Below, in pieces: positions 58,880 to 63,661 of a stretch of DNA of 64,000 nucleotides. Made by a program: the position numbers and the translations under genes. The first letter of the stretch is position 1. Each line of letters starts with the position of its first letter. The DNA is taken from assembly GCA_019359375.1 (NCBI GenBank), contig JAHHHL010000010.1, positions 1 to 64,000 of the forward strand. The letters are read 5' to 3'. Source of the DNA: Lyngbya sp. HA4199-MV5 (GTDB taxonomy: Bacteria > Cyanobacteriota > Cyanobacteriia > Leptolyngbyales > Leptolyngbyaceae). The notes beneath the pieces were generated by a model, which made no database searches, was not told where the DNA came from, and saw only the letters and a list, made by a program, of their open reading frames with translations.

Positions 58880-58915
58880 AAAACCTTTGGCTGAAATAGG
58901 CAAACGACTTTGTTA

Positions 58916-59233
58916 ATGATGTTTGTACAAACAAAAGCGCAAGTGCTAGCTCTTCTTCAGGAATATCGACAAGAACTACGACAGTTTGGTGTTAGCCGTT
59001 GTGGTCTTTTTGGGTCGTTTGTTCGTGATACTAATGTGTATGAACAAAGCGATGTTGATATTCTGGTTGCGTTTGAGCCAGACCAGAAGACTTTTGATAA
59101 CTTTATGCACTTATCGTTTTTCTTAGAAGAGCTTTTTGGTCGAAGCGTTGACCTCGTTACGATCGAATCACTTAGCCCTTATATCGGTCCGCGCATCTTG
59201 GACGAGGTAGAGTATGTCTCCATCAGCTCGTGA
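58916..59233 (+). CDS. mntA: MNT-type nucleotidyltransferase (antitoxin of MNT/HepT pair)
   Basis: A 105-residue minimal nucleotidyltransferase. The catalytic motif GSFVRDTN (GS at 33-34) with D47 and D49 in QSDVDILV is intact. In MNT/HepT systems MntA adds AMP residues to the toxin HepT and so neutralises it (family knowledge). The hepT gene overlaps its last 20 bases, a strong sign of a coupled pair. I start at ATG 58916; a TTG two codons earlier and the next ATG are alternatives. Confidence 0.92.
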   Translation: MMFVQTKAQVLALLQEYRQELRQFGVSRCGLFGSFVRDTNVYEQSDVDILVAFEPDQKTFDNFMHLSFFLEELFGRSVDLVTIESLSPYIGPRILDEVEYVSISS

Positions 59234-59555
59234 ATACTTGCAACACATTCTCGATGAAACGGCTTACCTCACTGCTAATTCTGCCAATCTCAATAAACTA
59301 ACTTTCCTACAAGATGAAACTCTCAAACGCGCATTTGTTCGCAGCATTGAAGTCATCGGTGAGGCAGTGAACCAACTTCCTGATGAGTTGCGGCAAAAAC
59401 ACGTTGCGATTGAATGGCGTGCGCTGGCAGGAATGCGCGATCAATTAATCCACAGCTACTTCGGTGTTGATTACGATATTGTGTGGGACGTAGTGATCAA
59501 CAAAATCCCCACACTCAATGTAGAAGTCATGAAAATACTTGAGCAGGAGTATTAG
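59214..59555 (+). CDS. hepT: HepT-type (DUF86) RNase toxin
   Basis: A 113-residue all-helical HEPN protein of the DUF86/HepT type. The R-x4-H-x-Y signature is R75-DQLI-H80-S-Y82; this is both the RNase site and the region where Tyr is AMPylated by MntA. The pair MntA-HepT is a type VII toxin-antitoxin system. Its start lies inside the mntA gene, 20 bases before its stop, so it depends on mntA translation. Typical length; complete. Confidence 0.92.
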   Translation: MSPSAREYLQHILDETAYLTANSANLNKLTFLQDETLKRAFVRSIEVIGEAVNQLPDELRQKHVAIEWRALAGMRDQLIHSYFGVDYDIVWDVVINKIPTLNVEVMKILEQEY

Positions 59556-61708: not shown

Positions 61709-62113
61709 ATGTTTAAGACTGTACTTTTTCCGATCGACCGTAGCCGCGAATCTCAACAGGCGGCTGAAACCGTAGCTGGCGTGGTCAAAATCCACAGCAG
61801 CCGCTTGATCCTGCTGTCGGTAGTCGAACCGCCTGCTGAGGATGGCACTAATGATGCCATGTCATCGCCTGAAGCGATCGCCGAGCTGTTGAGCACTGCC
61901 AAAGCTGTCTTTTTGCAGCAGGGTATTGAAACAGACGCGATCGAGCGCGAAGGCAAGCCTGCCTTTACCATCTGCGATGTGGCGGATGAAGTGGATGCCG
62001 ATCTCATCGTGATGGGCTGTCGGGGTTTGGGGCTTACCGATGAAGGCGTATCTGATAGCGTTACTAATCGCGTCATCAATTTGTCGCCTTGCCCCGTGCT
62101 GATTGTGCCGTAA
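61709..62113 (+). CDS. Universal stress protein (UspA family), altered nucleotide motif
   Basis: A 134-residue single Usp domain (MFKTVLFPIDRSRESQQA at the N-terminus). The ATP-binding motif in ATP-type Usp proteins is G-x2-G-x9-G-S/T; here it reads GCRG, nine residues, then D-S, so the second Gly is replaced by Asp. ATP binding may be weakened. It is the first gene of a three-gene unit with the cyclase-like protein (25 bases on) and the RbgA GTPase. Confidence 0.93.
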   Translation: MFKTVLFPIDRSRESQQAAETVAGVVKIHSSRLILLSVVEPPAEDGTNDAMSSPEAIAELLSTAKAVFLQQGIETDAIEREGKPAFTICDVADEVDADLIVMGCRGLGLTDEGVSDSVTNRVINLSPCPVLIVP

Positions 62114-62138
62114 AGAATGTCTGCAACGTCCTGCCTCC

Positions 62139-62822
62139 ATGACTGATACCAATGCAGATGATGACGCGATGCTGCGGCAAACAATGTATCGCTATATGAC
62201 ACAAGAATTGGCGGAGCAGTTGTTGGCAGACTCTGAAGCTAGCACTCCGCGTATTGCGGTCAAAGAAGTTTCTATCTTGTATGCCAATATTTGTGGCTAT
62301 GAAACCTTTACAGAAGGCATGGAGCCAGAAGCCGTCGTGAACCTGCTCAATCAATATTTTGAAACGATGGTAGATGCCATCTTTGAGCATAAGGGCACAC
62401 TCGATAAGTACATCGGCGCAGCGATTATGGTGGTTTTTGGTTCGCCTGTACCGCTTGACAATCATGCCTGGAAAGCGGTGGAGACAGCGATTGCTATGCG
62501 TGATCGCCTCATTCACTTAAATGCTCAATTAACGACTGCCCAACAGCCAACACTTCAAATCGGCATTGGCATTCACACTGCTAGAGTGGGGGTTGGTAAT
62601 ATTGGCTCGAGCAAGCGGATGGAATATACAGTAGTGGGTGATGGCGTTAATCTAACTGTTGCTTTGGAAAAAGCGACTCAAGAGTATCAGTGTGACATTC
62701 TGCTTAGCGAGACGACTTATCAATACTGCGTTGATCGAGTTCAGGTAGAAGCTTTGGGTCCAAAGCTCTTTAGTGGCAGAAAGCAGCCGATCACCCTCTA
62801 TAAGTTGATTGAACTGTCATGA
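62139..62822 (+). CDS. Degenerate class III adenylate/guanylate cyclase-like protein (pseudo-cyclase)
   Basis: A 227-residue protein that is one cyclase homology domain (about 40-225) with a short N-terminal helix. The fold is clear: VSILYANICGYETFTE, DKYIGAAIMVVFGSPVP, GIGIHTARVGVGNIGSSKRM and YTVVGDGVNL. But the two metal-binding Asp are Asn50 and Ala94, and the transition-state Arg (four residues after N171) is Ala175. It should therefore lack cyclase activity and act as a regulator or ligand-binding domain. The ATG at 62139 is used. Its stop overlaps the rbgA start (ATGA). Confidence 0.88.
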   Translation: MTDTNADDDAMLRQTMYRYMTQELAEQLLADSEASTPRIAVKEVSILYANICGYETFTEGMEPEAVVNLLNQYFETMVDAIFEHKGTLDKYIGAAIMVVFGSPVPLDNHAWKAVETAIAMRDRLIHLNAQLTTAQQPTLQIGIGIHTARVGVGNIGSSKRMEYTVVGDGVNLTVALEKATQEYQCDILLSETTYQYCVDRVQVEALGPKLFSGRKQPITLYKLIELS

Positions 62823-63661
62823 CAACGCCTTCCATTCAGTGGTATCCCGGTCACATTGCTAAAGCCGAAAAAGCGCTGATGGAGCAGCTTAAGCGGGTGG
62901 ATGTCGTGCTGGAAGTGCGGGATGCGCGGATTCCCCTTTCTACAGAACATCCCCAAGTGCGCCAGTGGTTGGGCACCAAAGGGCGCGTGCTGGTGCTGAA
63001 CCGCATTGACATGATCTCCACGCAAGCGCGTCAGCGGTGGATTGAGTGGTTTCGATCGCAGGGCGAAGAACCCTACTTTACCGATGCCCAGCATGGGAAA
63101 GGCATTGAAACCGTGTTGCAAGCTGCCCAAAAAGCTGGGGAACAGATGAATCAACGCAGGCGCGATCGGGGCATGTTGCCTCGTCCGGTTCGTGCCGTTG
63201 TCATTGGGTTTCCAAACGTGGGAAAATCGGCGCTCATCAATCGGTTGCTGAATCGGCGCGTGGTGGATAGTGCCCGACGTGCTGGAGTCACCAAGCAATT
63301 GCGCTGGGTCAGAATTTCGGAGGAAATCGAACTGCTCGATGCACCTGGCGTATTGCCATCCCGACTGACGGATCAGGAGGCTGCACTCAAGCTGGCAATC
63401 TGTGATGACATTGGGGAAGCGGCGTATGACAATCAACGGGTTGCAGCGGCACTGGTGGAGATGCTCAAGGATCTGGCGATCGAGTCTGTCTTGCAAACAC
63501 GCTACAGCCTGGATGCTCAACCGCTTACGGGTGAAAGCTACCTGCATGAACTCGCAGCCCAGCGTCATCGGGGTGACGTTGAACGCACGGCACGGCAATT
63601 GTTGAACGATTTTCGCACTGGGGTGTTAGGTGCGATCGCGTTGGAGTATCCGCCGCTGTAA
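62819..63661 (+). CDS. ylqF: Ribosome biogenesis GTPase RbgA/YlqF
   Basis: A 280-residue circularly permuted GTPase: the G4 motif NRID (about 61-64) comes before the G1 P-loop FPNVGKSALINRL (about 130-142) and G3 DAPGVLPS. It begins IQWYPGHIAKAEK, the family hallmark. It assists late assembly of the large ribosomal subunit. It is the last gene of the unit with the Usp and cyclase-like genes, and its ATG overlaps the cyclase-like stop codon, so the two are translationally coupled. Confidence 0.95.
   Translation: MTTPSIQWYPGHIAKAEKALMEQLKRVDVVLEVRDARIPLSTEHPQVRQWLGTKGRVLVLNRIDMISTQARQRWIEWFRSQGEEPYFTDAQHGKGIETVLQAAQKAGEQMNQRRRDRGMLPRPVRAVVIGFPNVGKSALINRLLNRRVVDSARRAGVTKQLRWVRISEEIELLDAPGVLPSRLTDQEAALKLAICDDIGEAAYDNQRVAAALVEMLKDLAIESVLQTRYSLDAQPLTGESYLHELAAQRHRGDVERTARQLLNDFRTGVLGAIALEYPPL

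Follow-up and report, generated by a model that had tools for sequence, protein, structure and literature searches.

The active site of class III nucleotide cyclases is formed between two protomers, one of which supplies the metal-binding aspartates while the other supplies a lysine, a threonine, an asparagine and an arginine. In these enzymes, ATP binding requires a metal held by the two aspartates together with the phosphate loop. The C1 and C2 halves of mammalian adenylyl cyclase are each incomplete and work only in pairs. Regulation by pseudokinases is well documented, but there is hardly any description of bacterial pseudo-cyclases that stand alone; a search of the open literature under direct terms returned none, many subscription papers lying outside its scope. 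Among the described systems closest to the present one, Anabaena CyaB2 is arranged as GAF-GAF-PAS-adenylyl cyclase (PMC4411481), and ODR-1/DAF-11 is an obligate heterodimer of incomplete cyclase subunits (PMC5225109).

The window analysed here, a stretch of 64,000 nucleotides from Lyngbya sp. HA4199-MV5 (genome G000), carries on its forward strand a stand-alone pseudo-cyclase of 227 amino acids, composed of a class III cyclase domain and an N-terminal helix. The open reading frame runs from an ATG at 62139 to a TGA ending at 62822. This ATG is the likely start, since the ortholog in the congener G003 (P0002) has the same ATG and the same following bases while the DNA upstream differs. A profile search matched the protein to Guanylate_cyc (PF00211) over nearly the whole core, scoring 76.9 bits (cut-off 21.9). 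The AlphaFold2 model (pLDDT 80.6, with residues 1–37 poorly modelled) matched the Cya2 guanylyl cyclase (2w01; Z 24.1 over 189 aligned residues, 3.2 Å, 37% identity). It also resembled Spirulina CyaC (1wc0–1wc6; Z 23.4) and other dimeric class III cyclases. The profile score and the fold place the protein within the class III family, although, unlike Cya2 and CyaC, which are enzymes with full catalytic sets, this relative (27–37% identical to them) has lost its catalytic set.

The nearest relatives were CyaB2-type cyclase domains, with which the pseudo-cyclase groups at 52–57% identity, a likeness to Anabaena CyaB2 and CyaB1 (PMC4411481) that includes the helix just before the core. In contrast to those proteins, PF00211 is its sole domain, without tandem GAF or PAS; it stands alone, its Asp/Asp/Arg set is lost and its phosphate loop is changed. 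An active-looking relative in the same genome (C93:45213), 908 amino acids long and 54% identical, has the GAF-GAF-PAS-cyclase layout of Anabaena CyaB2. The N-terminal helix region (residues 8–29; 62160–62225, forward strand) was modelled with low confidence, yet its stretch T15–L29 is almost identical to that of active CyaB2-type cyclases, R18C in the G003 copy being the sole difference. The C-terminal strands (residues 201–227) are just 22–33% identical to CyaB2.

Residues were assigned by aligning the pseudo-cyclase with about 110 relatives, of which 35 were CyaB2-type. At the three catalytic columns, occupied by D, D and R in 35/35 of the CyaB2-type sequences, the pseudo-cyclase has N50 and A94 (codons 62286–62288 and 62418–62420, forward strand) in place of the two metal-binding aspartates and A175 (62661–62663, forward strand) in place of the transition-state arginine. 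The partner asparagine (N171) and the base-recognition pair K90 and T164 are retained in both the G000 and G003 copies. These observations bear out the earlier note, made from the letters alone, which had described a cyclase domain that lacks both metal aspartates and the catalytic arginine and keeps its base-recognition residues and fold. Further active-site changes had escaped that reading: S49A, R52C and T55E flank N50, and S174V accompanies A175. When 131 almost invariant positions were defined across the 35 CyaB2-type relatives, 88/131 were retained, while 43/131 differed in one or both pseudo-cyclases. The changed positions include S49A, D50N, R52C, T55E, D94A, S174V and R175A, so that all three phosphate and metal sites are touched, whereas nearly all of T15–L29, K90, T164, N171 and most of the core are unchanged. 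Given that the metal and phosphate sites are altered, and that T55E brings a negative charge into the phosphate loop, it is close to certain from the residues that the protein would be without catalysis, and its ATP binding appears doubtful. The nucleotide sensing proposed in the earlier note is disfavoured on the same grounds, as the loss of the metal ligands and the changes R52C and T55E should weaken ATP binding. A residual activity, such as weak cyclase function or another nucleotide reaction through other ligands, could draw on the substrate contacts K90, T164 and N171; nevertheless, it is highly improbable, with both metal ligands and the arginine lost without visible replacement and an acidic residue in the phosphate loop.

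The ortholog search covered 42 genomes of the family (a search of the order gave the same 42) and 388 genomes of the class. A close copy was present only in G003 (L010 1498–2181, reverse strand), 80% identical, which shares the N/A/A residues and the ATGA overlap into rbgA; five other congeners had no pseudo-cyclase. Because these three residues recur in the only ortholog next to rbgA, the losses are fixed rather than peculiar to one strain, and a single-strain loss or a sequencing error was rejected; the outcome that the earlier note had named as its refutation, a full catalytic set in orthologs of the operon, did not arise. A pattern designed for the lost second aspartate, DK[YF][IV]G[AS]A.M, and searched in the DNA matched 3/388 class genomes (G000, G003 and G023), and its reversed control matched none of the 388. 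The G023 copy (L203), from another genus, is more degraded: it is a stand-alone protein of 280 amino acids whose three catalytic positions read N, S and H, and rbgA lies on a different contig. The L203 locus (G023:C55, 59–901) also showed a longer N-terminus and trypsin-like protease genes alongside. With the catalytic columns removed, one tree grouped this copy with the G000/G003 pair at 99/84, although the branches of both are long and the placement of each changes when the other is omitted. Carriage by plasmids or viruses was rejected, the plasmid and viral matches being distant cyclases only (30–37% identical). A degenerate CyaB2-like cyclase was also observed in L205 (G009:C10, 2616–5678), within a 1020-residue fusion of Caspase (C14), nSTAND1 NTPase and the cyclase part; in the latter the two metal positions are occupied by S and G, the Asn position by S and the Arg position by T, and K90 is replaced by R. 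As read from its residues, this is a separate predicted loss of catalysis in an immunity-like architecture.

Downstream, the pseudo-cyclase runs into rbgA/ylqF (62819–63661, forward strand), which encodes a ribosome biogenesis GTPase of 280 amino acids identified by the equivalog TIGR03596 (319.9 bits against a cut-off of 208.2). The stop codon of the one and the start codon of the other overlap as ATGA at 62819–62822 (forward strand), in the context TC-ATGA-CA. The coupling to rbgA suggested in the earlier note is borne out by the conservation of this overlap in G003, and the identical junction in the two genomes points to a single origin. Upstream lies a Usp-family protein of 134 amino acids (61709–62113, forward strand; PF00582), whose gene ancestrally preceded rbgA in this family; 25 nt separate its end from the pseudo-cyclase ATG, and a divergent pgk lies further upstream. 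The corresponding pgk/usp-rbgA loci of relatives contain the same rbgA gene, and in several of them it follows usp directly, with gaps of roughly 5 to 160 nt. Unlike these loci, those of G000 and G003 alone carry a pseudo-cyclase inserted with an ATGA overlap upstream of rbgA; in G000 it occupies the slot between usp and rbgA and extends into the rbgA start codon, leaving no spacer. The congeners G002 and G005 have a Uma2-type gene between usp and rbgA, ending ∼120 nt before the latter. Across the loci compared (61709–63661; L119–L148), the slot just upstream of rbgA was highly variable, holding a direct usp-rbgA junction, Uma2, NERD-like, pseudo-cyclase or unrelated genes. Promoter and terminator scans gave nothing above chance.

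The proposed operon with Usp as a unit was not supported, as the G003 pair adjoins a divergent der and usp lies on a separate contig. The der gene encodes another ribosome-assembly GTPase, and ∼350 nt separate it from the pair (L202 4649–7962). The earlier note had also remarked on a changed nucleotide-binding motif in Usp. The change itself is real, the ATP-binding loop reading GxxG-9x-D-S and not GxxG-9x-G(S/T), but D/E-S occurs at this position in 16/16 orthologs examined. It is therefore family-wide and not specific to the locus, and a special Usp variant was rejected. Elsewhere in the window, at 58910–59555, we observed a likely HepT/MntA toxin-antitoxin pair, an MNT nucleotidyltransferase (PF01909) followed by a HepT-like gene (PF01934) with overlapping frames.

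Comparison of the G000 and G003 pseudo-cyclases gave dN 0.116 and dS 0.43 (dN/dS 0.27), a departure from the equal rates of neutrality (chi-square p 6e-11), and both reading frames are free of stops and indels. These values show that purifying selection continues to act on the protein, and a decaying pseudogene as the main explanation was rejected on them. Since the catalytic losses are shared, the simplest view is that they arose before the two copies split, in which case the constraint acted on an already dead protein. The dN/dS pairs of the neighbouring genes and the active relative were 0.048/0.96 for rbgA, 0.055/1.08 for usp and 0.034/1.04 for the CyaB2 3' region; the ratio of the pseudo-cyclase is 5 to 13 times theirs, which shows that its constraint is loose. 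This looseness bears on the possibility that a cyclase fragment replaced the native rbgA leader and is kept because ribosomes translating it are passed on to rbgA, with the protein product of little consequence. The place taken in G002 and G005 by the Uma2 gene and a leader of ∼120 nt, set beside the missing spacer in G000, would also agree with such a role. However, the amino-acid sequence is clearly constrained, in a pattern that preserves the fold, and we consider this explanation unlikely.

Synonymous sites of the pseudo-cyclase have diverged less than half as much as those of usp, rbgA and the CyaB2 domain (dS; Fisher p 6e-7, against the thin background of three pooled genes). Its GC3 is 0.46 compared with 0.54–0.65, and the sister species G006 (species tree 100/99) has no pseudo-cyclase. 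Taken together, the low dS, the low GC3 and the absence from G006 suggest that lineages exchanged the gene after they had become separate species; alternatively, the low dS could come from constraint on synonymous sites. Joint transfer with the 5' end of rbgA, where third-position identity is high, is not supported by that identity, since codons 1–40 show the same degree of conservation in every congener. The tree places the pair away from the genus's own CyaB2 copy, and a recent duplication of that gene is not favoured, although the AU test did not reject an origin from it (p 0.19). The same signs of lateral exchange (dS of 0.43 where about 1 is seen, GC3 and absence from G006), as well as a slot that changes hands between Uma2, NERD-like and pseudo-cyclase genes or is closed by a direct junction, could describe a mobile or recently exchanged gene heading for loss without stable function. 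We regard this outcome as decidedly unlikely, given that both copies are intact and have been under purifying selection ever since they diverged.

The partnership with rbgA allows for another role, a tuning of ribosome assembly through RbgA as the earlier note proposed; the dead domain, nucleotide-bound or not, would bind RbgA or else the pre-50S particle. The overlapping pair is common to two species with differing upstream neighbours, so that the pseudo-cyclase remains linked to rbgA where usp is not. In S. aureus, RbgA is itself regulated by (p)ppGpp (PMC8579695), and nucleotide control of this step is thus plausible, though it would be so even without the pseudo-cyclase. Against such a regulator, the protein of G023, the third of the 388 class genomes to have one, lies apart from rbgA; the phosphate-loop changes oppose nucleotide binding; five other congeners manage without the gene; and a junction of single origin could have been retained for no other reason than the loss of rbgA's own leader. 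An action on RbgA, for or against which the sequence does not speak, is possible but rather doubtful. The ATGA overlap ties the expression of the two genes and does not imply contact between the proteins.

Our leading explanation, which we hold tentatively and which draws on residues and gene order, is that a dead CyaB2-type domain, cut from its GAF-GAF-PAS context, may act as a binding protomer upstream of rbgA, most likely by pairing with an active CyaB2-type cyclase. The locus combines the loss of three catalytic residues, the retention of the fold and of a dimerisation-type helix, and an rbgA that starts inside the stop-codon overlap. A binding role would agree with the retained helix and core and with the purifying selection; as to the partner, we infer the active-looking 908-residue CyaB2-type cyclase of the same genome as the most likely one, or the pseudo-cyclase itself. 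A homodimer would have a complete site in neither interface. In a mixed dimer with the CyaB2-type cyclase, one site would be without metal ligands and the other without the arginine, and cAMP synthesis would thereby be damped. Translational coupling would tie the amount of the pseudo-cyclase to RbgA synthesis. Such a protomer resembles ODR-1/DAF-11 and C1/C2 in lacking the residues for a complete site of its own; those partners, however, complement each other into one complete site, whereas with both the metal set and the arginine missing neither composite site would be complete.

In favour of a binding protomer we count N/A/A in both orthologs against D/D/R in the relatives, the dN/dS with intact frames, the 88 retained positions, the match to the Cya2 fold, the active-looking relative in the same genome and the shared ATGA. 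Against it stand the loose constraint, the existence of only two known close copies, the diverged C-terminal strands, which may reflect an altered interface, and the fact that nothing ties RbgA to cAMP. In a wider proposal, a sensor cyclase would have become, in a small cyanobacterial set, a dedicated protein without catalysis through which cAMP signalling or nucleotide state is coupled to ribosome assembly; translated in lockstep with RbgA, it would bind RbgA or an active cyclase and set one by the amount of the other. We see this as quite improbable.

The pseudo-cyclase is a narrowly distributed form, new within the known class III cyclase fold. Being small and under selection, and with active-looking relatives in the same genome, it offers a clear case in which to study the role of a cyclase fold once catalysis is gone. 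Should it lower the activity of a CyaB2-type cyclase, or act on RbgA, cAMP signalling would be tied to ribosome assembly in cyanobacteria.
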